Assembly (NCBI GenBank): GCA_020628035.1
Contig: JAHDFS010000001.1
Location: 7,207-71,206 of the forward strand
Length of the DNA stretch: 64,000 bases
Direction of reading: 5' to 3'
Source of the DNA: Rhizobiaceae bacterium
Lineage (GTDB): Bacteria > Pseudomonadota > Alphaproteobacteria > Rhizobiales > Rhizobiaceae
Part shown: in pieces, positions 4,454-32,957 of the stretch
Position numbering within the stretch: position 1 is the stretch's first letter
Layout: the number at the start of each line of letters is the position of its first letter
Made by a program: the position numbers and the translations under genes
Notes under the pieces: model-generated
Database searches by the model: none
Told to the model about the DNA's origin: nothing
What the model saw: only the letters and a program-made list of their open reading frames with translations

Positions 4454-5328
4454 TAGCCAGCTTCCTTTCCAAGCACAAAATCAAAATCTACTGTGAAGAA
4501 CGGCATGGTGACATTATCACCAATTTCCAAACCTGCTGGGATTTTAGTTTTATCTGTCTGTTCAACATATTCCATGATGAGCTTTTCACGCACGCCAAAT
4601 ACCGCATCATTATCCAGGTAAGGATCATCACTTGGGAACACTTCGGTCACCAATGAACGATAGCCAGGTGCCGTAATAATGAAATGCAAATGTGATGGAC
4701 GCCAAGGGTGACGTCCCGTTGCTTTGAGCATCTCACCGACAGAACCATCAATTGGCACTGTGTAAGGCGCAGGCCGCACTGTTGTCAGCTTATAGACACC
4801 ATCATCGCCGACGACCATATGGCCGCGAAGATTATATTCTGGCTGCTCATTATCCTGATTGGAATAAAGACCATTATCTGCGGTTTGCCAAATTTCAATC
4901 TCAGCACCGGCGATTGGGTTGCCATCGGGATCTGTCACCTTACCTTCAACAATCACAGTCGCGCCATCATTATCACGCTTTAAATCACCGCCAACGGGCA
5001 GATCTGGTGCGCCCAGAATATGGAAAGGCCCCAACACACTTGATGGCGTCACACCCTCTGGCGAATGCACCATATCGACAAGCGAGGACAGCCCCAAAAC
5101 ATCAGACAAAAGCACAAATTCATTACGCTCATCATCGGTCATTTCTCCGGTAAAGCGTAAGAATTCAAGCCCGCGTCGCCACTCTTCATGGCTTAGATTT
5201 GTTTCGCGCACAAAATCATGTAGATGATGAACCAAACGATCTAGAATGAACTTTAGACGCTCATCCGTCTCCGGTTCGCAATAATCCAAAAATGCTTGGG
5301 TAATAGACTCTGTTGTTACGTTGCGCAT
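4453..5328 (-). CDS. Intradiol ring-cleavage dioxygenase (hydroxyquinol/catechol 1,2-dioxygenase type)
   Basis: Dioxygenase N-terminal helical domain; GLYSNQ..., VRPAPYTVP, RPSHLHFIITAPGY (Fe-binding Tyr and HxH). Confidence 0.88.
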   Translation of the reverse strand: MRNVTTESITQAFLDYCEPETDERLKFILDRLVHHLHDFVRETNLSHEEWRRGLEFLRFTGEMTDDERNEFVLLSDVLGLSSLVDMVHSPEGVTPSSVLGPFHILGAPDLPVGGDLKRDNDGATVIVEGKVTDPDGNPIAGAEIEIWQTADNGLYSNQDNEQPEYNLRGHMVVGDDGVYKLTTVRPAPYTVPIDGSVGEMLKATGRHPWRPSHLHFIITAPGYRSLVTEVFPSDDPYLDNDAVFGVREKLIMEYVEQTDKTKIPAGLEIGDNVTMPFFTVDFDFVLGKEAG

Positions 5329-5345
5329 TTAAGGCCTCCAATAAG

Positions 5346-6656
5346 TTAGTTCAAAATCCCAATGGATAGAACTGGGTATTTAATAATAAGAACAAGAACG
5401 AGCAGCATGATCACTGCAAATGGGAAGGCACCCATAAAGACGTCTTTGAGTGAAATTTTGGGATCGTTCAGTGTCGCTTTGATCACAAAACACGAGATCC
5501 CTAAGGGTGGTGTAAGCAGCCCGATTTCCGCACCGATCACAGTAACGATGCCGAACCAAACTAAGCTAAGCCCCATGGATTCAATCAAAGTCAAAAATAG
5601 CGGCACTACAATGAGAATGATCGAGGCCGTATCCAAAATGGTGCCCAAGAAGAGCATCAAAAGGACGTAGATGATCATGACGGTCACAAAACCAAAATTA
5701 TATTCTTGCAAGAACGCATTCAGCTCATTTGGCAAACCGGCATAACCAAGCATGCGGCTATAAAGCGATGCCATCAAAATGAGAAACAAAATAGACGCGG
5801 TGATATGACCAGTTTCAATGGCTGTTTGCCACAAACCTTTCCAAGTGATCTTCTTGCGCATGAAGGCAATGATCAACGCGACAAATGCGCCTGCAGCCCC
5901 CGATTCAACCGGCGTCAACCAACCAGTGTATATTCCGCCCAGCACAACAGTGATCAAGAACAAAATTGGCACAGTTTTATCAAACACCTCAAACCAGGTA
6001 AGTTCTTCAACCTCTGTGCTTTTCACATTTTTGCCAATAAATGATGGCCAAAAACGCCCTGCCAATAAAATGCCAATGATATAAGCGGCCGTTAAAACCA
6101 AACCAGGAACAATGCCGGCTAGAAACATTTCACCAACGGACTGCTCGGCCACAAAAGAGTAAATGATCAGCATCGCACTTGGCGGAATAATCATACCAAG
6201 AACCGATGATCCAGCGACCACGCCAACAGCAAAGCGCGGGTTATAGTTTAAGCGCTGCATCTCCGGCACTGAGATTTTGGTAAACACAGAAGCGGACGCA
6301 ATGGATGAACCGGTCACAGCAGCAAATACAGCATTTGCACCCACCGTTGCCATGCCAATACCGCCTGTGATCTTGCGGAACCCACGGCTCATAACCGTAT
6401 AAATATCGGTCCCTAATCCGGCCCTGGACACCAATAACCCCATGACGGTGAACAAGGGTATGGTGGCGAATGCATATTCCTCCACACCATCGCCCACCGC
6501 CACTTTTAAAAAGTTAAACGCTAAAATGGACTTGCCCGAAATCAACCAGATGGACACAAATGACACCAAACCCAAAGCGATCGGGATATACATGCCGATA
6601 TAGACAAGGAAAATAATTGCGACGACTGAAAACGCGCCAATTTCTACAGGTGTCAT
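5346..6656 (-). CDS. TRAP transporter large permease (DctM)
   Basis: 436 aa polytopic; GSSIASASVFTKISVPEM, GMIIPPSAMLIIY, LLTPPLGISCFVI. Confidence 0.9.
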   Translation of the reverse strand: MTPVEIGAFSVVAIIFLVYIGMYIPIALGLVSFVSIWLISGKSILAFNFLKVAVGDGVEEYAFATIPLFTVMGLLVSRAGLGTDIYTVMSRGFRKITGGIGMATVGANAVFAAVTGSSIASASVFTKISVPEMQRLNYNPRFAVGVVAGSSVLGMIIPPSAMLIIYSFVAEQSVGEMFLAGIVPGLVLTAAYIIGILLAGRFWPSFIGKNVKSTEVEELTWFEVFDKTVPILFLITVVLGGIYTGWLTPVESGAAGAFVALIIAFMRKKITWKGLWQTAIETGHITASILFLILMASLYSRMLGYAGLPNELNAFLQEYNFGFVTVMIIYVLLMLFLGTILDTASIILIVVPLFLTLIESMGLSLVWFGIVTVIGAEIGLLTPPLGISCFVIKATLNDPKISLKDVFMGAFPFAVIMLLVLVLIIKYPVLSIGILN

Positions 6657-6687
6657 AACAAGCTTCTTTTTTGGTATTTATTATTCA

Positions 6688-7338
6688 TTACGTATCGACC
6701 GATTTTGCATTTTCAGCCATGGCCTTTTGATGATTGCCGAACAAAAGGGCCTGTTCAGTATCGAGCAAGGCTTTGAGCAAAAATATGATGGCGCAGAGCG
6801 TGACGCTAAACGCGATCGCAAGCTTGACGGGCCATGTGGGTGCTGTGAAAATTCCCGGCGTTCCGGCATATTCACAACGTCCAAACGCGTCAGATAAATC
6901 GCGGAAAAAATCACCCGTTAATGGCGGCCCAAATTCTGGCGCCACAAAGAATGAGCATGTCTCATAGGATTCGACAAATTCTGGCCAAACGGTCCATGCG
7001 ATTAACACCATGAAAACCCCAGCAATAAAATCGATTACCCGCGAGATATTACACGCGACTTTGGGTTTTAACCCATGAATGAGATGCAAAAATCCATCTG
7101 ATCTCGTCAGGCGATTTGATCTGACCACATCAGGTAATTGCAAGAATACGATGAGTGCCAGAGAAAAGATCACAAGCTCGACGACGCCATTAATAGGGTC
7201 GTGCAAAATGCCTCTGGCAACCACATCCGCATTGAGGATCGCAACAAGTGCGAAGATCAACATGGTTCCGATGGTATTGGCAACAATGGCCACACTCACG
7301 GAACTGTTGAAAAACCGGCGAAAGAACGCGCTAATCAT
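6688..7338 (-). CDS. TRAP transporter small permease (DctQ)
   Basis: 216 aa, 4 predicted TM segments, between DctM and DctP genes. Confidence 0.8.
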   Translation of the reverse strand: MISAFFRRFFNSSVSVAIVANTIGTMLIFALVAILNADVVARGILHDPINGVVELVIFSLALIVFLQLPDVVRSNRLTRSDGFLHLIHGLKPKVACNISRVIDFIAGVFMVLIAWTVWPEFVESYETCSFFVAPEFGPPLTGDFFRDLSDAFGRCEYAGTPGIFTAPTWPVKLAIAFSVTLCAIIFLLKALLDTEQALLFGNHQKAMAENAKSVDT

Positions 7339-7365
7339 TAAATATTTCCTCCGCCGGTTAACGTC

Positions 7366-8469
7366 TTAAAGTTCTGCAGCCCAGTCACGAAGTGGCGTGA
7401 AGCCAGCATCTTTGAGCTTACCAATGTAAGCTTTGAGCATATCTGAACCTGGTGCACCTTCTGAATCAAGCTTCTTAGCCCAATCAACAGCAATATTCGG
7501 CATTGAATCTGCCCATGCTTGGCGTGCTTCAGCACTCATTTCAACAACGGTGCCACCACCAGCTTTATAAGCTTCAAGGGATTCAGCTGCGCGATCCATC
7601 GCAATACCGGCAACATGGTCACGATATTCAAGAGCAACCTTTTGAAGCACAGACTTCACTTCGTCGGGCAGTTTGTTCCAGACATCTTTGTTCACTGTCA
7701 CTGTTTTGGAATTCACAGCACCCAGGTCAACTTTGAGCATATATGGCGCAACTTCTGCGATCTTAAATGTTTTCGCAGCTTCTGGCCAAAGCATGGCAGC
7801 TTCTGTCACACCTGTTTGGATCATGTTATAAAATGTTGGCAGACCGCCACGTACACCGGCTGCGCCTTCGATGCCTTCAAGATATCTTAGGTTATAACCC
7901 GCACCAGCGACTTTCTTACCTTCCAAATCAGCCAGTGAATTGATCGGTGTTTTTGAGAACAACTGATAGGTATCCAGCACAACACCTGTTGCGAGATAAA
8001 CCTGGTTTTCGTCATCCAGCTCTTTCGCCATTTGTGGGAATTCGCGGGCAATTTCATCAACTGCTTGAGCGACAACGCGTGCATCAGCTGCAATAAACGG
8101 TGTAACGGCTGAGATACCTTGGCTAGGTAGTTTTGAGTTATGGAAAATTGTTGTGACAATACCGATATCGCCAAGACCAAGCTGGATGCCTTCAAGCACA
8201 CCGCGTGGCTTAACAATCGTTCCGCCATAACCTTCTTGCCATTTGATTTCATATTTGCCGCCTGCGGCGAGCTCTTCATTCACCCGTGGAATAAAGAAAC
8301 CTGAGAATTCTTTTACCCACATAGAACGCTCTGGATATCCGTCGATCGCAATCATATTGATTGTTTCAACGGCAGATGCCTCAGATGTGTGTAAAGCAGT
8401 ATTGGCTCCTAACGCCAATGCTGCGAGTACAACACTCGTAGTACTGATTTGTTTGACTAATTTTAACAT
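7366..8469 (-). CDS. TRAP transporter solute-binding protein (DctP type)
   Basis: Signal peptide; LADLEGKKVAGAGYNLRYLEG, MIQTGVTEAAMLWPEA; operonic with DctQ/DctM. Confidence 0.85.
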   Translation of the reverse strand: MLKLVKQISTTSVVLAALALGANTALHTSEASAVETINMIAIDGYPERSMWVKEFSGFFIPRVNEELAAGGKYEIKWQEGYGGTIVKPRGVLEGIQLGLGDIGIVTTIFHNSKLPSQGISAVTPFIAADARVVAQAVDEIAREFPQMAKELDDENQVYLATGVVLDTYQLFSKTPINSLADLEGKKVAGAGYNLRYLEGIEGAAGVRGGLPTFYNMIQTGVTEAAMLWPEAAKTFKIAEVAPYMLKVDLGAVNSKTVTVNKDVWNKLPDEVKSVLQKVALEYRDHVAGIAMDRAAESLEAYKAGGGTVVEMSAEARQAWADSMPNIAVDWAKKLDSEGAPGSDMLKAYIGKLKDAGFTPLRDWAAEL

Positions 8470-8575
8470 TTTCTTCCTCCCAAATTGTGTTTGAAACCGG
8501 GATAGATCTCAAACCTAATAGTTAACTTGATGAAACAGAGCCTCCTCAGACCACGCCAGCAATCTGTCGTTTCAT

Positions 8576-9040
8576 CTAATCGTCTTTGCGCACCCAACTC
8601 TCTTCAATTTCAGTTCCCGCTTGCTTGAAAAGTTTGGAAAGCGGGCAATATTTCGATACTTCTTCCGCCAATCTTGCCAATTCGGCCTCTGTCGCTGTGC
8701 CATCGGCTTCAACGGTCAGCTTAATTTTGACAAATGGGACATCAATCTCCTCCTGAAGCGTCACGCCCCGTCGGTCAAAATCGCAAACAGCTGAAATATC
8801 CAAATGACCAATGTCGATGAGCAATGATTCAGCGCATTTATGTGCAATCACATTCGTGCATCCAATGAGCGCAGAAATGGCTGTATCCGTAGGCGTTGGC
8901 CCTAAATTGGTACCACCTCGTGCCTCAGGTTCATCGATCGCAAAATTGAGATCGCGAATTGAAATATTGGACAATGAATGAGACGGGCTTTGTGCCTTTG
9001 CCCTTAATTTCACAGTCATTTGAGGCTTTAAATCAACCAT
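8576..9040 (-). CDS. OsmC family protein
   Basis: 154 aa; GPTPTDTAISALIGCTNVIAHKCAE, C-terminal KYCPLSKLFKQAGTEI. Confidence 0.85.
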   Translation of the reverse strand: MVDLKPQMTVKLRAKAQSPSHSLSNISIRDLNFAIDEPEARGGTNLGPTPTDTAISALIGCTNVIAHKCAESLLIDIGHLDISAVCDFDRRGVTLQEEIDVPFVKIKLTVEADGTATEAELARLAEEVSKYCPLSKLFKQAGTEIEESWVRKDD

Positions 9041-9723
9041 TAAACGACCTCACACACATCATCAAAATCAAAGCGCGGCAAACGCTGAAACAACGCAGTT
9101 TCATCGGCATAACCGATATTGCAAAGGAAATTTGATTTAACTGTCGTTCCTTTGAAAAATTCTTCGTCAATAACAGCGTTAGAAAATCCAGACATCGCAC
9201 CAATATCAAGACCAAGCGCGCGGGCAGCGATCATCAAATATCCACCCTGCAAGGTGGAATTGCGAAACGCTGTCTCTTCAGAATATTCAGGCTTGTCTTT
9301 AAAAAGGTGTCGTCTGTCTTCATGCGGGAAGAGTTTGGGCAATTCTTTCCAAAACTCAGTGTCATAAGCTACAATCACCGTCAGCGGTGCACCCATCATC
9401 TTCGGAACATTCGCAGGCTTTAACGATTTTGCCACGCGCGCCTTGCCCTCAGGTGTTTTCACAAAGATGAAACGCGCCGGGCAGCCATTCATGCTTGTCG
9501 AACCCATTTTCACAATATCATAAAGCTGATGGATGAGCCCGTCATCGATGGGTTTGTCTGTCCATGCATAGTGAGAACGCGCACCAGAGAGAATAAGCTC
9601 AATCGATGCATCATCCAATTGGTGAATTCTTGATTTAAGATCACGGGCATCTTGCTGAGCGGCTTCTCGCAACTTCAATAACTCTTCACCAGTGGGTGCA
9701 CTATTTGGCACATTCATATTCAT
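9040..9723 (-). CDS. Nitroreductase family protein (RutE/HadB-like)
   Basis: ARSHYAWTDKPIDDGLIHQLYDIVKMGSTSMNGCPARFIFVKTPEGKARVAKSL, NSTLQGGYLMIAARALGLDIGAMSGF; start moved to MNMNVPNSAP. Confidence 0.85.
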   Translation of the reverse strand: MNMNVPNSAPTGEELLKLREAAQQDARDLKSRIHQLDDASIELILSGARSHYAWTDKPIDDGLIHQLYDIVKMGSTSMNGCPARFIFVKTPEGKARVAKSLKPANVPKMMGAPLTVIVAYDTEFWKELPKLFPHEDRRHLFKDKPEYSEETAFRNSTLQGGYLMIAARALGLDIGAMSGFSNAVIDEEFFKGTTVKSNFLCNIGYADETALFQRLPRFDFDDVCEVV

Positions 9724-9880
9724 TCGACGTTTCCCGCACTTTAGGAATCTAGCTTCCAAACCTCTATAATTCAAAAATACCCACATTTATACCCATTCGT
9801 CAATAAATATCGATATTTTTTATTTGACCGGAGTTTATAATAAAGTATGGTTTTGTAGAGAATGTGGAGGAATTGAGAAA

Positions 9881-10273
9881 ATGCCAAGCTGGAAAGACTA
9901 CCGTCAGACATCAAAAGAACGCGGATCTCTTGCTTTTGAATTATATATTGTCGAATCAACACCAGCCATGCCGCCGGAACAAATGCTGGCCATCTTGCCC
10001 GAACATCTCGCCTACCAGGGTGAGATGGAAGCACAGGGCAAACTCTTTCTCGCTGGACCTTTGTCAGATGCGACGGGCGAAGAGATGAGTGGCGGTGGCA
10101 TGATTATCTATAATGCCAGCTCTTTAGAAGAAGCACGCGAAATTACTGAAAATGACCCAATGCATAAAAAGGGTGGCAGAACATTTACCATCAGACGCTG
10201 GCTCGTTAATGAAGGCTCTTTCTCGCTCAATATCGGATTATCTGGGCAGCGCGTGGAGCTGGCAAAGAACTAA
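9881..10273 (+). CDS. YCII-like domain protein
   Basis: 130 aa; HLAYQGEMEAQGKLFLAGPLSD...EAREITENDPMHKKGGRTFTIRRW; GGAGGA-type RBS upstream of ATG 9881. Confidence 0.75.
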   Translation: MPSWKDYRQTSKERGSLAFELYIVESTPAMPPEQMLAILPEHLAYQGEMEAQGKLFLAGPLSDATGEEMSGGGMIIYNASSLEEAREITENDPMHKKGGRTFTIRRWLVNEGSFSLNIGLSGQRVELAKN

Positions 10274-11082
10274 CTTTCCGGCATAGCACATCGTTTGGAA
10301 GAGGCTTTTGCGATCAGTTTTCCATCATCTCGATGAATAAAAACGTCTGATCCAGATGATGCGAGATTGATGGATGCACCGATATCTAGATTACCAAGGT
10401 AAACGACTTCTCGCCGCTTTAATGGCTGAGTTGTCTTTTGTATTTGATCTTCAAAACGCTCCGTAAATTTCGAAAAACTTGGAAAATATAAAAGCCCAAC
10501 CGCGTTAAAGTCGAGTGATCGGCATGGCGTGTAATCTTGGTTTCGATCGCACTTCATCTCCGGATTTGTATTTACGCGGGCGGTAGTTCTGGCGTGTTCG
10601 GCCAAAGTTAGTAATTCCTGCGGCGCCATATCTAAAGACAAGCTCGGCATATATTTATTGCGAACAATTGATGTATTCGCCTTGTCCTCACCATGGCTCA
10701 CAAAGGTCGAAATCATCAATAATGATGCGATCTCTTGCTTGGCTAACAGTATTTTATGAACCGAACCGATCTGGTGATGGCTGACATGATAAAGGCTGGA
10801 GGTGATCTCCACATTTTTCGCAAGCAATTTGGTTTGTGGTGAAAGCTCAATAGATGTCGCACAAAACGCCGCATAAACCTCTCTTCCATAGACATCTTCA
10901 AACACAGCTTGTTTTTGACCCATGGCTTGGGCAATCAACGACCAATGAATATCCCCACCCAGTTTCAAAAACCACTGCTCAGATATGCCATCTGGTTGTA
11001 ATTCAGCCATTCCGAGCGTGATCGAACGTGCGCAATCTATCTTTTGAATAGGATGTGTCTCAAATGCTGCGTGACTATTCAT
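10270..11082 (-). CDS. LnmK-related / Pnap_2097-type biosynthesis protein attached to the Nit1C cluster
   Basis: Motif LQPDGISEQWFLKLGGDIHWSLIAQAMG...FEDVYGREVYAAFCATSIEL recalls Pnap_2097/LnmK hot-dog proteins; stop/start overlap with upstream nitH. Confidence 0.65.
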   Translation of the reverse strand: MNSHAAFETHPIQKIDCARSITLGMAELQPDGISEQWFLKLGGDIHWSLIAQAMGQKQAVFEDVYGREVYAAFCATSIELSPQTKLLAKNVEITSSLYHVSHHQIGSVHKILLAKQEIASLLMISTFVSHGEDKANTSIVRNKYMPSLSLDMAPQELLTLAEHARTTARVNTNPEMKCDRNQDYTPCRSLDFNAVGLLYFPSFSKFTERFEDQIQKTTQPLKRREVVYLGNLDIGASINLASSGSDVFIHRDDGKLIAKASSKRCAMPES

Positions 11083-12356
11083 TCAGCTGCCACCACCGCA
11101 TCTTGATTTAAGCTCTTTTCAATATGGTCTGCGAGATATCGTCCATCTTCATTGATGGAAAGAAAACGCCCTGACCCCCATTTGTTGAGCCAACCCAAAC
11201 CAATGAAGTAAAATCCTGGCACATCACAAACACCGCGATTATAAACGGGTCGACCCTTTTCATCGAATACATCAGCATCAATCCAATCGTAATTCGGCCT
11301 AAATCCAATCGACCATATGACCGAAGTTATGCCCTGCTCCTTAAGATCAATTTCAGTGATCTCGTCTTTCGGTTCCCAAAGCTTTTCAAAAGGCGCTTCC
11401 ACGGGAGCAGAGATGTTATTTTTTGAAATATATTCGTCAATAACGTTGCAAATACCGAGATAACTATTATCCGCGTCATCCAGATTTTTGCGGAGGTCTG
11501 GAAGAAAACGCAGCTTCTCATCATCCATATCTGATAGCGAGCCATAAAGGCTGACATCGCTTTCAACAACAAAGCGCCTGAGATCGATTTCCTTACCGCC
11601 ATCACGCCCCGACATATAATGGTTGGTTTGCGTGAGCGCCTTATGTGGATCGGGGTGCTCTGCAATTGTTATATCATAATGCCCCATATCATAGAGCCAA
11701 TCCGTTGCATCGCGCCCACGATATTTCCGCGGACTACGCGGGGCAGGTCCAACAGCTAGATGAACTTTGCGTCCATCGCGCACCAGATCTTCCATGATCT
11801 GCACACCGGATTGTCCCGTCCCCACAATAAGGGAAGCACCTTGAGGAATTTGCGCCGGCCGGCGATAGTCTTTCGAATGCATCTGCATCACAGATGGATC
11901 AAGCTTTTCTGCATAAGGCGGAACAATGGGCGCATCATATCCACCGGTGGCAATCACGACCTGTGAACAATGCCAATGACCATCAGACGTGATAACATCA
12001 TAACCATCAGCTTCTTTGCTCACGTTTTTGACTTCGACATTTTCCAAAATAGGAGGTTCAAAACTTCGCGCAAAACCATCGAGATAATCAACAATCTCAT
12101 CTTTAAGCATAAAGCCATCTGGATCATCTCCTGAATAAGGAAAATTCGGCAATCGACATTGCCAATTTGGGGTCACAAGGCAAAAGCTGTCCCAGCGATT
12201 TTCACGCCAGGAATGGAACTTTTGATATTTTTCCAAAACCACATGTTCAATGCCTTTATTATGTAAGTACCAACTTACAGTAAGGCCGGCTTGCCCGCCG
12301 CCAACTATGACAACAGGAATTTGGATTTTGTTTTCATTGGTATTTGTTAAATTCAT
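11079..12356 (-). CDS. nitH: Nit1C flavin-dependent oxidoreductase (MSMEG_0569 family)
   Basis: PVVIVGGGQAGLTVSWYLHNKGIEHVVLEK FAD motif, IVGTGQSGVQIMEDL NAD(P) motif; start at MNLTNTNENK; gene order matches Nit1C. Confidence 0.85.
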   Translation of the reverse strand: MNLTNTNENKIQIPVVIVGGGQAGLTVSWYLHNKGIEHVVLEKYQKFHSWRENRWDSFCLVTPNWQCRLPNFPYSGDDPDGFMLKDEIVDYLDGFARSFEPPILENVEVKNVSKEADGYDVITSDGHWHCSQVVIATGGYDAPIVPPYAEKLDPSVMQMHSKDYRRPAQIPQGASLIVGTGQSGVQIMEDLVRDGRKVHLAVGPAPRSPRKYRGRDATDWLYDMGHYDITIAEHPDPHKALTQTNHYMSGRDGGKEIDLRRFVVESDVSLYGSLSDMDDEKLRFLPDLRKNLDDADNSYLGICNVIDEYISKNNISAPVEAPFEKLWEPKDEITEIDLKEQGITSVIWSIGFRPNYDWIDADVFDEKGRPVYNRGVCDVPGFYFIGLGWLNKWGSGRFLSINEDGRYLADHIEKSLNQDAVVAAE

Positions 12357-25534: not shown

Positions 25535-27130
25535 ATGACGCAAACAAAACAGCCCAATATCGTAATGATCCTTGCCGATCATGTCGCCTATGCCGGACAT
25601 TATGGATCGGAACGATATGACTATACTTGGCCACATTTAGAACGAATTGCCAAGGACGGGGCGAAGTTTAACAAAGCCTATGCCATTACGCCGGTATGTA
25701 CGCCATCTCGCGCAAGTTTTTTGACCGGGAAAAGACCCGATAAACACGGCATGCGATGGAATAGCGAATATCCAATCCCTTATAATAGAACCGAATTCAG
25801 AGACGATGAGCAATTGTATAATGCACATCTCACCAAGGTAGGTTATGAAAATTACTATTATGGAAAATGGCATTGTGGCATTGATAAAACAGCTGAAGAT
25901 TATGGCCTAAACGGCTGGAGCCTTGCAGAATATGGCAATCTTTATGCATCAGAACGCTACAAGGAATATTTAGCCAAAATCGATCAACCGCAACCCGTTT
26001 GTCGGATTGACCATCATTTGTTACGTCCTGAACTGGATGGCACCGAGGTTTTGATGAACCCGAACGAGCCATGGGATTTCATGGATGGCGCAGGCGTTCT
26101 ATTGGGATCAGCAGAAGTCCAAGAACAATTCTTTATCGCCAATCTTGCAATCGAACAAATTCAAAAGCTCGCCCAACGAAAAGATGACAAACCATTTTCC
26201 ATGGTGATCAGCATGTGGGGGCCGCATCACCCCTATTATCCAAGTGAAGAGTTTGCCAATCTCATCAACCCCGATGACATCCCGAAATATCCAAGTTTTG
26301 ACGAAAACCTGGACGATAAAGCCTGGCGCTATCGTATCCAACGAGATCTGCGCTGCCAGCATCGTGCCTTTGAACGCTGGCCAGACTGGAAAATCTGGCA
26401 AACGGTCATGGCACGCTGTTATGCAGCCGGTCTGCAAACCGATGCCGCGATTGGCAAAATTAGCGATGCGCTTGAAGCGGCTGGTTTAGCGGATGACACA
26501 CTTCTCATTGTTACGGCAGATCACGGAGATGGCATTGCCGCCCATGGGGCAGGATGGGATAAATATTCTTCTTTTACGGAAGAAGTTGGTCGTATCCCGC
26601 TCGTCATGCGCTGGCCTGAGGGTTTGACGAAAAACACTGAAATTGCTTCTCCCGTTAATTTGTTGGATGTGACGGCAACCATGCTGGCTGCTGCGGGTGC
26701 AACATCTCAATTCGATCAAGCGCTCAAACCTGATGGCGAGAGCCTTTTGCCGATGGTAAATGACGGCAAACAACGAGATCACATGATCTGCGATCATTAT
26801 GGTCATTCAGGCGATGTTTTATTCCAGAAAATTCTCTATCTGGATAACTGGAAATACACATCCGTTTGGGGTGATGATGATGAGCTCTATAACCTGAAAG
26901 ACGATCCTCATGAGCTCAACAATCTAATTGACGATGAGCCACAAAGAGATCGCGCTACGAAGATGCGTCAGATCATCTTAGATCATCTCACCCAACGACG
27001 CGATGAACGTAGCAAATGGCACAAAGCGGAATTTTGGGAGGATGGTATTGTATTTTCCTCACCAGAATGGCCGCGTGAAGAAACACTGCAAGTCTATAAG
27101 CTAAAGGTTCAACTGGGTTTACCGACGTAA
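25535..27130 (+). CDS. Sulfatase (type I, arylsulfatase-like)
   Basis: CTPSRASFLTGKRP formylglycine motif, GYENYYYGKWHCG, VTADHGDGIAAHG. Confidence 0.9.
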   Translation: MTQTKQPNIVMILADHVAYAGHYGSERYDYTWPHLERIAKDGAKFNKAYAITPVCTPSRASFLTGKRPDKHGMRWNSEYPIPYNRTEFRDDEQLYNAHLTKVGYENYYYGKWHCGIDKTAEDYGLNGWSLAEYGNLYASERYKEYLAKIDQPQPVCRIDHHLLRPELDGTEVLMNPNEPWDFMDGAGVLLGSAEVQEQFFIANLAIEQIQKLAQRKDDKPFSMVISMWGPHHPYYPSEEFANLINPDDIPKYPSFDENLDDKAWRYRIQRDLRCQHRAFERWPDWKIWQTVMARCYAAGLQTDAAIGKISDALEAAGLADDTLLIVTADHGDGIAAHGAGWDKYSSFTEEVGRIPLVMRWPEGLTKNTEIASPVNLLDVTATMLAAAGATSQFDQALKPDGESLLPMVNDGKQRDHMICDHYGHSGDVLFQKILYLDNWKYTSVWGDDDELYNLKDDPHELNNLIDDEPQRDRATKMRQIILDHLTQRRDERSKWHKAEFWEDGIVFSSPEWPREETLQVYKLKVQLGLPT

Positions 27131-27152: not shown

Positions 27153-28487
27153 CTAAAACTGGATAAACACCTCAAATCCATCCGCCTCACCTCGTCGGGG
27201 CGAGAAAATGGTGAGCTTACCACTACATTGCTCAACGATGGATTTTGCTATTGATAATCCTAACCCGGTACCTTCTGCACTTGTATCGCCGCGTTCAAAC
27301 GGCAAGCCCAGACGTTCTATTACATCCTGCGGAACCACTTCACCCTCATTGGAAACCGATAAAGTTTTTTCACTCTGAATATCAATGCAAACTTTTTGAT
27401 CTAAAGCGCCATGAATAAGCGCGTTCTCAATCAGATTACGTAACAAAATCGCAAACGCGTCCTTTGTAAGCTTTGCGGATAATTGATGATTTTCAGAATT
27501 GGTGAGCTCGACGCGGTCACTCATTTTCGAATTGGAGCGAAAGTCATTTATGATGAGCGACAAAACAGGCATCAAATCCACATCTTGATCGCTTTTAGCA
27601 AAGCCCGCTTCAAGACGAGAGAACTGCAAGAGCTTCTCTGATAAGTCGGATAAATGGCGCAGCGATTTTTCGATATCATCAGCACGCTGTTTGCCCGGAA
27701 TGTTCGCAAGCTCAATAGCAAGTCTTTGCGCTTGCGCGAGGGCACCTGCTAAAGGCGTTCGCAATTCATGCGCACTTTTTGCAGCAAATGCCCGCTCAGT
27801 ATTGAGTGCTCGACCCAAACGATCCAAGAGACTGGCAACTTCGTCAGCAATGGGTGCGAGTTCGCGCGGATAAAAATTTGATGTTAAGGGAGAAAGGTTG
27901 GTTCCGTCGCGCTCTGCGATATCTTTTTGCAATTGATTAACTGGCTTCATCGCGTGCTTGGCTGCAAACCATACACCCAAAACCATGAGCGGGATCAAGG
28001 CAGCAAGTGGCAACAATAATGCCAAAATACTTTCCCAAAGTGCGTGGCTGCGATGATTAGTCCGTTCGGCAATAACAATGCCATATCCAGTTTCAGGATC
28101 GGTGATCGCGAAATATCTGACATTATCAATATTGGAAAACCCATCTAGCACCCCTGAGGACGCAATATCGGCCTGTAAATCATCTGAAAGCGCAATGCGT
28201 TTCCCACTGGCATTACGAATATAATAAGCAAAATTTGCGTTATAGTTTTGAAGCGAAGCTATCTCATATTCGTTTTCTGGCAATTCGCCCTCAGCCAATT
28301 CTTCCAAATCATGAATGGCAAGTGGCAACAATCGAATGGCCGCCTGTTCAAGCGATTGATCAAAGGCTTCATTTAGCTCATGGCGAACGACAAGACCAGA
28401 AATCATCGCAGCTCCGAGCCAAAAGCAAACAACGCCAAAGACGAGACCGAGTGTAAGTCTTCTGGTAATTGAAAAGGATCTATTCAT
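27153..28487 (-). CDS. Sensor histidine kinase
   Basis: H-box AKSAHELRTPLAGALAQAQ, G-box GTGLGLSIAKSIVEQ, two TM segments. Confidence 0.92.
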   Translation of the reverse strand: MNRSFSITRRLTLGLVFGVVCFWLGAAMISGLVVRHELNEAFDQSLEQAAIRLLPLAIHDLEELAEGELPENEYEIASLQNYNANFAYYIRNASGKRIALSDDLQADIASSGVLDGFSNIDNVRYFAITDPETGYGIVIAERTNHRSHALWESILALLLPLAALIPLMVLGVWFAAKHAMKPVNQLQKDIAERDGTNLSPLTSNFYPRELAPIADEVASLLDRLGRALNTERAFAAKSAHELRTPLAGALAQAQRLAIELANIPGKQRADDIEKSLRHLSDLSEKLLQFSRLEAGFAKSDQDVDLMPVLSLIINDFRSNSKMSDRVELTNSENHQLSAKLTKDAFAILLRNLIENALIHGALDQKVCIDIQSEKTLSVSNEGEVVPQDVIERLGLPFERGDTSAEGTGLGLSIAKSIVEQCSGKLTIFSPRRGEADGFEVFIQF

Positions 28488-29140
28488 TTATTGACCTGAT
28501 AACCAATCCCACGCACAGTGTGGACGATATTCTTACCAATCTTTTTGCGCAATCGGCTGATATAAACTTCTACAGCATTGCTTTCGATCTCAGCGCCAAA
28601 CTCATAAAGCGATTCTTCAATATCCCTTTTGGGAACGATCGCCCCGCGATTGCGTATGAGCCTTTCAAGTACCGACCATTCCCTTGCCGTTAAAGTAAGT
28701 TGCCTGTGGTTTAACGACACTGTTTTGCGTGCCAGATCAATTGTAAGATCATCAATTTCAATGCTTGGAAGCGTATGAGATGAATAACGCCGTGCAACGG
28801 CAGTTAATCGGGCGGTGAGTTCATTAAGATCATAAGGTTTAATGAGATAATCATCCGCGCCTGAATTAAGCCCTTCAATCCTCATTTCGATCTGATCTTG
28901 CGCAGTAGAAATAATGACCGGAACATCGTTAGCCTTGGACCGCAGATGATTAAGAATATCCATGCCCTTGCCATCTGGAAGACCAAGATCGAGCAAAACA
29001 AGTTCATAAGACGTTGTTTGCATCGCAAGCATGGTCTCATCAACACGCCTCATCCAATCAACACTATGACCGCTGGCGACAATGTGATCACGAATGGCCG
29101 CACCAAGAATATGGTCATCTTCTACAAACAATACACGCAA
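28484..29140 (-). CDS. OmpR-family response regulator
   Basis: MRVLFVEDDHILGAAIRDH, VLLDLGLPDGKGMDIL, wHTH ...VEVYISRLRKKIGKNIVHTVRGIGYQV. Confidence 0.92.
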   Translation of the reverse strand: MRVLFVEDDHILGAAIRDHIVASGHSVDWMRRVDETMLAMQTTSYELVLLDLGLPDGKGMDILNHLRSKANDVPVIISTAQDQIEMRIEGLNSGADDYLIKPYDLNELTARLTAVARRYSSHTLPSIEIDDLTIDLARKTVSLNHRQLTLTAREWSVLERLIRNRGAIVPKRDIEESLYEFGAEIESNAVEVYISRLRKKIGKNIVHTVRGIGYQVNK

Positions 29141-29285
29141 ATGAAAATCCTTTCATGATCGCATTTGCGACACAAACCTTACAGGAAGCTGAACAAATAT
29201 TTCAAACCTTGTAAGCATACTGTCAGCTTTCTTGCCTAGCTCTAACACACGTCAATTTTTTGAGCAAAACAGGAAAGGACAAAAA

Positions 29286-29759
29286 ATGAGGAAGACTTTA
29301 GCTGTACTTGCAATTTCAACGACACTAATTGCGCCGGGCATCGTTCAAGCTAAAAACATTTCAGCGACCATCACCATGAAAGGTTTTCGAGGCCCACCTG
29401 CTTATGTTGCGGTTTATCTTACAAAGCCCAATGGCCAATTCCATTCCACTTTGTCCGTCCATGGTAAAAAAAGTAAATATCGCAGGCATCTGCGTGGTTG
29501 GATCAGAGGTGCATCGCGATCCAAACAAAGGCTCGATGGCTTAACCGGTGCAAGTGTGGGGTCGGGACGCACGCTCACCGTTAGCGCAAATGTTCAAGAT
29601 TCGCTGTTAAACGCAGGCTATCAAGTTCACGTCGATACCGCCGTTGAAGATCGCGGTGAGTTTCGAAGTGATGCAGCCATCCAAGTCAACACATCTCAAC
29701 CAAGTGCCGTCACCGCAGGCAAGGGCTTCGTAAAATCACTGAAAGTTCAACTTAATTAG
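29286..29759 (+). CDS. DUF2271-like periplasmic protein with ApbE-type flavinylation motif
   Basis: Signal peptide; TMKGFRGPPAYVAVYLTKPNGQFHSTLSVHG...RLDGLTGASVGSGRTL; operonic with PepSY flavoreductase and ApbE. Confidence 0.75.
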   Translation: MRKTLAVLAISTTLIAPGIVQAKNISATITMKGFRGPPAYVAVYLTKPNGQFHSTLSVHGKKSKYRRHLRGWIRGASRSKQRLDGLTGASVGSGRTLTVSANVQDSLLNAGYQVHVDTAVEDRGEFRSDAAIQVNTSQPSAVTAGKGFVKSLKVQLN

Positions 29760-29770
29760 GAACAACTAAA

Positions 29771-31972
29771 ATGCGTTCTATTCACTCGCTGTTTGGTGTC
29801 GCGACCGCCATTTTGATCAGCGTGATCGCAATGACCGGAGCTTATCTCGCCTTTGAACCGGTCATCAACCAGTTTTCTGTTGCACAAAATTCTGGGTTAA
29901 GCGTCGCTGATATTGCCGGCATAACTGTCGATCATAACCCGCAGGTTGAGCGAATAGAACGCAAAGCAAATGGAGAATTTATTATCCATGCTGTCAGCCA
30001 AGATATTCCCACAAGTTCGGTGTTAGATCTTCAAACCAATCAGCTTCTACCAAAAGAAAAACCATCAGAACTCACCCAGTTTTTCACAGAACTTCATCGT
30101 TCATTGTTTTTGGCTGACTTTGGACGCGGTGTCATTGGGTTTGGCGCTTTTCTACTCATATTGATCTCATATTCGGGTCTTGCTCTATTGGCCAAACGAA
30201 TGGGCGGTTGGCGCAAAATATTTGCACCAGCTAAAGGTACCCATGCCCAAAAACGGCACATCGATGTGGCGCGTTTTACTTTGCTTGGCTTTTTGATTTC
30301 TGCGCTAACCGGAATTTATATGTCGCTTGCAACCTTTGGCGTTATTCCAAGTTCGTCAGATGAAACACTGCCCTTTCCCGATCAAGTGGCAGTGGGCGAA
30401 AAAATGTCAGTCGCCCAAATGCAAGGATTAGCGAACATTCCGGCCGCCAGTTTACGCGAACTCATTTTCCCCTATCCGGACGATCCGATGAATGTTTTCA
30501 CTATCAGAACGGATCAAGGTGAAGGTTTTATTGACCAAGTCACAGGTAAGATAATCGCATTCCAACCCAACTCGCTTTGGCAAAACATATACGAATCCGT
30601 CTATGTGATACATACGGGCCGAGGAGGAATTGCAGCCGCCGCATTCGCGCTCATATTAGGTCTTTGCGCATTGGCTGTTCCTTATCTTTCAATAACGGGC
30701 ATGGTCATCTGGTGGAGGCGCCGGAAAACAACGACACGCGCATTCTCAAATACCCCTCTTTCAAAAGCAACAACTGTCATCTTGGTTGGTAGCGATAGCG
30801 GTTCGACATGGGGGTTTGCTTCTACGCTTCACGAAGCTCTGGCAAGACATGGTGAGAATGTACACACCTCTTCGATGAATGAAGTGACGCAAACACATTT
30901 TAACGCGAGCAAAATCTTTATTCTGACATCAACTTATGGAGATGGAAACGCGCCCACATCTGCCGATAAATTCATAGAAAAACTGGAAAGTTTAAAGATC
31001 AATTCAAATACTCAGTTTACCGTTTTGGGATTTGGCGATCGCCAATTTTCCAATTTCTGTGGCTTTGCACATTTGGTGGAAAATCAACTTTTGAGAAAAG
31101 GTGCACACTTCTTTTTCCCATTAGCCAAAATTAATCAGCAAAGCTCAAGTGCATTTAAAGTTTGGGGCCAATATATATCGCGTTGTTTAAGCTGCGAAAT
31201 AGTGCTTGAACATAAGCTTAAACGCCCAGACACTAAAAAGATCACGCTCGAAAAAATCGTTGGCCGCTCGGAAGAAACAGAGGAACAAACAGCGATATTG
31301 AGGTTCAGAACGCCGCGTCATCACCTGAACCTATTGGGGCATGGCATTAAATTCAAAGCAGGCGATTTAATTGGTATCCTCCCCCCTGGAAGTCATAAAC
31401 CGCGCTATTATTCAATCGCATCATCTTCAGAGGATGGTTTTGTCGAAATCTGTGTAAAGCGCCACAAATTTGGCCTGTGTTCAAACTATCTTTTGAACCT
31501 AAATGTTGGTGACGAAATCGATCACTTCATTAAAGAAAATTATAACTTCAAGCCAGCACCCAATACCAAACCACTGGTCATGATCGGCGCTGGAACTGGC
31601 ATTGCGCCCCTGACTGGTTTTGCAAGAGAAAATGCCAAGAAACGTCCCACATATTTGTTTTGGGGTGGTCGAAATCCATATGTCGATTTCATCTACAAAG
31701 ACACATTGATCGATCTGACCAGACAACGAAAACTGAGCAAGTCCTACTTCGCATTTTCAAGATTTGCCAACCGGCTCTATGTGCAGGACAGACTTAGATC
31801 TGAAGCTGAGCTCTTAAAAAGACTCATAAATGACGGTGCTCAGATCATGGTCTGTGGTGGACCGGAAATGGCGTCCGGTGTGCGCGCAGCGATAGATGGT
31901 ATTGCGTCTCAACTGGGACAGAGCACGACTTCCCTACAACAACAAAAAAGGTATTTAGAAGATGTCTACTAA
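29771..31972 (+). CDS. PepSY TM-domain / flavodoxin / ferredoxin-NADP reductase-type fusion (transmembrane flavoreductase)
   Basis: PepSY-type N-terminus (IHSLFGVATAILISVIAMTGAYLAFEP, FTELHRSLFLADFGRG), flavodoxin TSTYGDGNAPTSADKF, FNR: KPRYYSIASSS, MIGAGTGIAPLTGF, MVCGGPEMASGVRAAI. Confidence 0.85.
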   Translation: MRSIHSLFGVATAILISVIAMTGAYLAFEPVINQFSVAQNSGLSVADIAGITVDHNPQVERIERKANGEFIIHAVSQDIPTSSVLDLQTNQLLPKEKPSELTQFFTELHRSLFLADFGRGVIGFGAFLLILISYSGLALLAKRMGGWRKIFAPAKGTHAQKRHIDVARFTLLGFLISALTGIYMSLATFGVIPSSSDETLPFPDQVAVGEKMSVAQMQGLANIPAASLRELIFPYPDDPMNVFTIRTDQGEGFIDQVTGKIIAFQPNSLWQNIYESVYVIHTGRGGIAAAAFALILGLCALAVPYLSITGMVIWWRRRKTTTRAFSNTPLSKATTVILVGSDSGSTWGFASTLHEALARHGENVHTSSMNEVTQTHFNASKIFILTSTYGDGNAPTSADKFIEKLESLKINSNTQFTVLGFGDRQFSNFCGFAHLVENQLLRKGAHFFFPLAKINQQSSSAFKVWGQYISRCLSCEIVLEHKLKRPDTKKITLEKIVGRSEETEEQTAILRFRTPRHHLNLLGHGIKFKAGDLIGILPPGSHKPRYYSIASSSEDGFVEICVKRHKFGLCSNYLLNLNVGDEIDHFIKENYNFKPAPNTKPLVMIGAGTGIAPLTGFARENAKKRPTYLFWGGRNPYVDFIYKDTLIDLTRQRKLSKSYFAFSRFANRLYVQDRLRSEAELLKRLINDGAQIMVCGGPEMASGVRAAIDGIASQLGQSTTSLQQQKRYLEDVY

Positions 31973-32957
31973 TCCAGATATGGGCGTTATATTTATTCCA
32001 TCTATCCAACCAGAATTGAAGCACTACACCATCCACGGCCCCACAATGGGAACACGTTATTCAGCAAGTTTTTATGCGCCATCGTCCATAGATATCGCAA
32101 AGCTTCATCGCTATCTGCAAAGAGCCGTAGACAATGTGGATGATCAAATGTCTCCGTGGAAAAAGCAATCTGACTTAGTACGTTTCAATGCAGAACCGAT
32201 CGAAAAATGGATTGATATCCCCCTTGAAATGGCTGTTGTAATCAGCCAAGCCCTGAATATCAGCAATCTAAGCAATGGTGCTTTCAACATTGGTGTGGGG
32301 GATCTCATAAATATGTGGGGCTTTGGTCCTGACGAAGAATTTGTTGACGACCCTTCAACAGATACGCTTGTTGTTCCGCCTGCTCATCATGTATTTGAAC
32401 TGGATATGGAAAGATTTCAGTTAAAGCGAAATGCCGCCGTCGCGCTTGATCTATGCGGAATTGCAAAAGGCTTTGGTGTCGATGAATTAGCACGCGTTCT
32501 GATCAATTTTGATATCAATGATTTTTTCGTATCGATTGATGGGGAGATCAAAGCCTCAGGTTCAAAACCAGGAGATACTCCATGGAATGTGGGGATTGAA
32601 AACCCAGATCCGTTAATACGCGATGCCGACATCAGCCTTGAGATTGAAGACATTGCGATTGCAACATCAGGGGATTACCGTCATTTCAAAAACACCGGTG
32701 ATCACAAAATTTCCCACACGATGAACGCTGAACGAGGTCTGCCCGTTATGAGCAAAACCACATCTGTGACAATTGCTGCAAAAAACTGCATCTCGGCAGA
32801 CGCTTGGGCCACGGCGTTGATGGTTATGGAGCGAAAAGACGCGATTGCGCTTGCTGATCAGATAGGCATCGATGCATTTATCTGCGAGCGATCAGACGAA
32901 GGGGTAAATTCATACGCAGCGGGTGCTTTTTCCGCGTTAGCAAGTGAATTAAACTGA
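31962..32957 (+). CDS. apbE: FAD:protein FMN transferase
   Basis: GPTMGTRYSASFYAP, LSNGAFNIGVGDLINMWGFG, VALDLCGIAKGFGVDELA, ISHTMNAERGLPVMSKTTSVTIAAKNCISADAWATAL. Confidence 0.9.
   Translation: MSTNPDMGVIFIPSIQPELKHYTIHGPTMGTRYSASFYAPSSIDIAKLHRYLQRAVDNVDDQMSPWKKQSDLVRFNAEPIEKWIDIPLEMAVVISQALNISNLSNGAFNIGVGDLINMWGFGPDEEFVDDPSTDTLVVPPAHHVFELDMERFQLKRNAAVALDLCGIAKGFGVDELARVLINFDINDFFVSIDGEIKASGSKPGDTPWNVGIENPDPLIRDADISLEIEDIAIATSGDYRHFKNTGDHKISHTMNAERGLPVMSKTTSVTIAAKNCISADAWATALMVMERKDAIALADQIGIDAFICERSDEGVNSYAAGAFSALASELN

Follow-up and report, generated by a model that had tools for sequence, protein, structure and literature searches.

Exported redox carriers are assumed to acquire their flavin outside the cytosol, and this raises the question of how FAD is supplied there. 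The locus described here puts that question directly: in the window, the whole 64,000-nucleotide stretch of Rhizobiaceae DNA that we analysed, a gene for a secreted DUF2271 protein bearing an ApbE flavinylation motif shares a cassette with a gene for an ApbE that has no signal peptide. We asked where such a carrier would receive its flavin, what would reduce it, and what controls the system.

The candidate carrier is a 157-aa protein (29286..29759, + strand) that matched DUF2271 in Pfam (PF10029, E 3.3e-29, 101.8 bits vs a cut-off of 27.3, profile positions 3-135 of 136). Its residues 1-22 (29286..29351, + strand; MRKTLAVLAISTTLIAPGIVQA/K) read as a Sec-type signal peptide by sequence and a hydrophobic-core heuristic, with no twin arginine, and A22 was invariant in 27 diverse relatives. 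Codons 29535-29555 (+ strand), GAT GGC TTA ACC GGT GCA AGT, encode D84-G-L-T-G-A-S90, with Ser90 as the predicted FMN acceptor. The preliminary description had placed this motif in a secreted DUF2271-like protein, and the sequence, the family match and the signal bear it out. Since D..[ST]GA[ST] arose in 0.15% of shuffles of this protein and [ST]GA[ST] in 4.7%, the motif by itself is only moderately surprising. A chance origin was ruled out by conservation among DUF2271 homologues, on which the preliminary description had made its reading depend: G88-A89-S90 was invariant in all 27 diverse relatives, and G-I-[TS]-G-A-S was found in 80/80 relatives from named genomes. The leading D is N or S in some relatives, which leaves GAS as the fixed core. 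An AlphaFold2 model (mean pLDDT 69.5) gave a beta-sandwich with the motif inside a low-confidence loop (residues 79-90), a position compatible with a flavin that is accessible and mobile, although this is weak evidence. A fold search with the model returned weak C2/Ig-like matches only, none at E <= 0.001.

Directly downstream lies a gene for a 733-aa fusion (29771..31972, + strand), a predicted transmembrane haem reductase in which Pfam recognized PepSY_TM (residues 3-317), Flavodoxin_1 (337-459), FAD_binding_6 (501-584) and NAD_binding_1 (604-705). The nearest matches of the ferredoxin-reductase-like (FNR) part are diflavin reductases, for example P450 reductase and sulfite reductase alpha. 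Histidines H5, H109, H163 and H281 were each at least 97% conserved across 131 sequences, matching, at the level of sequence, the pair of bis-His haems described for the PepSY reductase class (PMC11334425). A second flavinylation site in the fusion was considered and rejected: [ST]GA[ST] was absent from 42/54 PepSY fusions and stood at scattered positions in the other 12, with none conserved. The apbE gene (31962..32957, + strand; PF02424, E 1.1e-68) overlaps the fusion gene by 11 bp. Near-invariant positions of its product include G113, D163, K169, H252 and D280, and His252 (32715..32717, + strand) aligns with the histidine of PDB 6NXI that is replaced by glycine in 6NXJ. The fusion and ApbE are therefore the next genes, as first described.

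The preliminary description had also proposed an electron chain from cytosolic NAD(P)H through a membrane PepSY flavoreductase to a covalently flavinylated periplasmic DUF2271 protein. This chain is supported by the domains, the four haem-type histidines, the intact ApbE catalytic histidine and the biochemistry of a DUF2271 homologue, and its core has already been published: Méheust et al. 2021 reported DUF2271 as an ApbE substrate, flavinylated at [S/T]GA[S/T] on coexpression, with a Thr-to-Ala mutant of a homologue losing flavinylation (PMC8238504). Their survey counted about 3,200 PepSY-like clusters, of which 2,833 have DUF2271 and 1,500 have DUF4198, found PepSY/DUF2271/ApbE clusters across some 3,000 genomes, and proposed iron reduction as the function (PMC8238504). 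In the window PepSY_TM is likewise clustered with ApbE and DUF2271, an arrangement conserved in relatives, and the cassette belongs to this published kind of system rather than to a new kind. What is new, as far as our literature search reached, is a distinct branch (type II) with its own sensor and regulator, an operator, a signal-less ApbE and recurring VIT1 and P1B-type ATPase genes in the neighbourhood.

To define this branch, we sampled DUF2271 loci within the order, class and phylum to which the window belongs and added 80 from named genomes. A profile built from the window's relatives split them into type II, at ~130-243 bits and including the window, and type I, at 24-38 bits. A kinase and regulator accompanied 121/134 type II loci vs 0/25 type I loci; in the broader draw alone the two-component system was present in 48/54 type II loci. 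The counts for the branches are biased by sampling, since the loci from named genomes are close relatives and some cassettes are cut off by the end of a contig. PepSY was found in 133 and ApbE in 126 of the 134 type II loci. DUF4198 and a TonB receptor were each found in 0/134 type II loci, the window included, vs 25/25 and 14/25 type I loci, respectively. No DUF2271 was found in the other sampled genomes of the window's own family (16 listed), which suggests horizontal acquisition. Type II cassettes are also plasmid-borne, and many of the plasmids are conjugative. Two such cassettes, on a Salmonella Cubana plasmid (L172, 12001-15541) and a Marinobacter plasmid (L173, 12001-15544), carry a ferric-reductase-like gene and VIT1/CCC1, and neither has an annotated ApbE; Klebsiella and Citrobacter gave matching hits.

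Divergent from the DUF2271 cassette, at 27153-29140, lie genes for a QseC/PmrB-like sensor histidine kinase (2CSK_N + HisKA + HATPase_c; 27153..28487, - strand) and a PmrA/QseB-like OmpR-family response regulator (28484..29140, - strand), both identified with Pfam and NCBIfam. Against the NCBIfam equivalog cut-offs for QseBC and PmrAB, the kinase scored 140 of 475 and 135 of 314 bits and the regulator 205 of 330 and 190 of 345 bits; by these sequence scores the pair is related to QseBC/PmrAB and is not equivalent to either. An iron-sensing ExxE motif in the kinase was considered and dropped, as the window's sensor region is acidic (LEELAEGELPENEYE) and this acidity is not conserved. A sulfatase-like gene (25535-27130) adjoins the two-component genes on the other side and shows no sign of belonging to the cassette; TRAP transporter and LysR genes lie further out.

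OmpR-family regulators bind direct repeats with an 11-bp period. Among 118 divergent intergenic regions, YTGAM-N6-YTGAM with an exact 11-bp period was found in 116, at most 200 bp upstream of the regulator, vs a mean of 0.4 in shuffles, and every other repeat period occurred in at most 11 loci. In 78 loci the repeats were present on both strands, and those with listed positions start 33 bp apart, forming a 49-bp palindrome. Allowing one mismatch, 43/48 genomes had the full palindrome, with 1-4 sites per genome that nearly all lie at the cassette, while a reversed control pattern gave zero matches in the same 48 genomes. The window's putative operator (29178..29226, no strand assigned), recognized from its repeats and from relatives, lies between the regulator and DUF2271 genes and comprises Box A, CTTAC-N6-CTGAA (29178-29193), and Box B, GTAAG-N6-GTCAG (29211-29226), both of them direct repeats with an 11-bp period, with starts 33 bp apart. 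This copy is slightly diverged: it is missed by the strict pattern and is perfect to a relaxed one, which matched once in the 64-kb window, where 0.01 matches were expected, and once in the window's own genome. That chance figure is optimistic because the relaxed pattern was designed to cover the window's copy; independent support for the operator, again from sequence comparison, is provided by the relatives. The regulator would presumably bind these repeats. A Kaistia genome carries extra operator copies (L287, 4431-4479; L288, 4074-4122); downstream of the first come a PepSY_2 gene and then VIT1 and a P-type ATPase gene.

The neighbourhoods of type II loci bear on the likely acceptor. VIT1 was nearby in 46/134 type II vs 0/25 type I loci and a P1B-type ATPase in 48/134 vs 1/25; cytochrome b561 was found in 39/134 and ferric-reductase-like proteins in 28/134 type II loci, and some type II operons include small PepSY_2 and Asp-rich secreted proteins. 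One very Asp-rich small secreted protein, encoded just upstream of DUF2271 (L200, 5518-5964, and similarly in L192 and L198), ends in NPAPAGTVAPPxNGLFG and is a possible metal-binding protein. In the window's own cassette, VIT1, P-type ATPase and small PepSY genes and the other extras named here are all absent, so the metal link rests on relatives. Alternatively, the cassette could serve iron acquisition in the manner of the Fur-controlled clusters of Caulobacter and Shewanella, reducing ferric iron or ferric siderophores for uptake. The frequency of VIT1 is in keeping with this, as is the Caulobacter type I cluster, which is iron/Fur-regulated and needed under EDTA (PMC3751524, PMC12004947). 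However, the absence of TonB receptors and DUF4198 from all 134 type II loci and control by a putative private two-component operator argue against it, and the nearby P1B-type ATPases fit metal stress as well as uptake; we regard an acquisition role as somewhat unlikely. The comparison of branches instead points to metal chemistry under two-component control for type II, rather than iron uptake of the Fur/TonB type.

We then considered where flavinylation takes place. Using a hydrophobicity heuristic rather than SignalP, we found an export signal on DUF2271 in 134/134 type II loci vs a signal peptide or lipobox, as typical extracytosolic ApbEs carry, on 0/124 cognate type II ApbEs, the window's included, whichever start codon was allowed. 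Type II ApbEs usually start M-S-T-D-x-x-R-H-A-L-N-G-P-T-M-G-T, ~14-20 residues before the domain. A missed upstream start was ruled out for the window's ApbE: its frame opens at 31959, one codon ahead of the ATG, which leaves no room for a longer N terminus. Only 1/17 type I ApbEs exceeded the heuristic threshold for a signal, and the mismatch of compartments between DUF2271 and ApbE may thus be general for DUF2271 systems. The cassette ApbE was the sole ApbE in 14 genomes, 13 of them at least 93% complete. A natural fusion of PepSY-TM, flavodoxin and ApbE in an 848-aa frame (L171, 4197-6740, - strand) places ApbE behind the flavodoxin, on the cytosolic side, and the adjoining type II DUF2271 reads DGITGAS; the same genome also has a normal cassette. 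Collectively, the signal counts, the sole-ApbE genomes and this fusion suggest that flavinylation precedes export. Twin-arginine export of a pre-folded carrier was rejected as a route, with no RR in the DUF2271 signal peptides read.

The same electron chain could operate with periplasmic flavinylation, if ApbE were exported by an unrecognized route or if an exported ApbE from elsewhere, for example one associated with Na+-NQR, modified DUF2271. The window's own genome does encode a second ApbE, near Na+-NQR genes, with an RR and lipobox signal (MANKLSISRRNILAASAILPLGLTACSS). That region (L074, G000:C18:1-13782, positions 4743-11793) also encodes NqrC with DALSGATLTS and an NqrB-like protein with DGFSGATALS. 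Yet the signal on this second ApbE, and the lipoprotein-like character of the non-cassette ApbEs in three other genomes where they could be read, also set the signal-less cassette ApbE apart and speak for flavinylation before export. The Salmonella plasmid DUF2271 retains DGLTGAS with no ApbE annotated in its cassette, so a periplasmic host ApbE may serve it. The cited sections of a 2025 ApbE review have exported ApbEs serving secreted targets and pair cytosolic ApbEs only with cytosolic targets (PMC12052999), and one report, in its own example, describes the cognate ApbE as 'signal peptide-truncated' (PMC8238504). Set against these points are the 13 near-complete genomes holding a signal-less ApbE only, the unrecognized export route that would be required for all 124 type II ApbEs, and the ApbE fused behind a cytosolic flavodoxin, and we therefore consider periplasmic flavinylation unlikely. 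Signal-bearing fusions of ApbE to DUF2271 were examined as possible support for it and set aside: the five with both domains have lost the motif, reading TKPSRQPG (L137), SGPT (L160), TRPT (L161), SRPT (L162) and ARET (L164) at its site, and have no bearing on active carriers. A more diverged sixth protein (L163) reads AGAT and did not match the ApbE model.

A further reading, in which the substrate of ApbE is a cytosolic protein and the motif in DUF2271 a relic, is highly improbable: the enzyme appears cytosolic and cytosolic ApbEs with cytosolic targets exist, as for Klebsiella fumarate reductase in the cited sections of the review (PMC12052999), but GAS is invariant in DUF2271 while 42/54 PepSY fusions lack [ST]GA[ST] and 12 have it only at scattered positions, and a DUF2271 homologue is a proven ApbE substrate (PMC8238504).

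We therefore favour, as reasonably probable, the reading that the window encodes a dedicated periplasmic reductase cassette, under two-component control and belonging to the PepSY-like flavinylation class, in which ApbE loads DUF2271 before Sec export and the acceptor is most likely a metal. In this model the kinase would respond to a signal in the envelope, probably one of metal or redox state, and the regulator would bind the paired 11-bp-period repeats of the 49-bp operator to drive its own gene and the DUF2271-PepSY-ApbE operon. With cytosolic FAD as donor, the signal-less ApbE would attach FMN to Ser90 of the DUF2271 precursor, and Sec would then export the flavinylated protein. Electrons would pass from NAD(P)H to FAD, to FMN in the flavodoxin, to two haems and on to DUF2271-FMN, which would in turn reduce an acceptor in the periplasm, a metal, for example ferric iron, being the likeliest candidate. 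We found no precedent for a flavinylated chain crossing Sec in the literature searched. That there is a two-component-controlled class whose carriers receive FMN in the cytosol from an ApbE that is not exported and cross Sec with the flavin attached, so that loading uses cytosolic FAD and no periplasmic FAD is needed, we put forward tentatively, as a possibility that falls a little short of evenly balanced.

With signal-less ApbEs across the whole DUF2271 branch, and some genomes holding no other, 'flavinylate first, export second' becomes directly testable. The dedicated operator offers a handle on signal and acceptor through the inducer and the regulon, and the repeated presence of VIT1 and P1B-type ATPase genes nearby suggests that metal reduction is coupled to metal transport.

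Among known systems, the PepSY-like systems of Méheust et al. (PMC8238504) share with the type II cassette a DUF2271 protein with [S/T]GA[S/T], ApbE and a PepSY-TM protein with a cytosolic NAD-binding domain, and a minority of their clusters also have VIT1. Type II differs from them in its two-component system and private operator, in having no DUF4198 or TonB receptor, in an acceptor that is always the Ser of GAS, in the flavodoxin within the fusion and in an ApbE gene directly after PepSY. The Caulobacter crescentus cluster CC_3059-3063 / CCNA_03155-03159 likewise combines DUF2271, ApbE and a flavoprotein/PepSY reductase, but it is Fur/iron-regulated and includes DUF4198, and a linked two-component system is not listed for it (PMC3751524, PMC12004947). 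The Pseudomonas aeruginosa PepSY reductase FoxB (PDB 7ABW, cited in PMC11334425) shares the PepSY-TM core and has two bis-His haem sites where the window's protein has four near-invariant histidines, whereas here PepSY is fused to flavodoxin and FNR domains. The cytosolic Klebsiella ApbE that acts on fumarate reductase is, in the cited sections of the review (PMC12052999), likewise signal-less and accompanied in the same cell by an exported ApbE, but its target is cytosolic, whereas the target here is exported.
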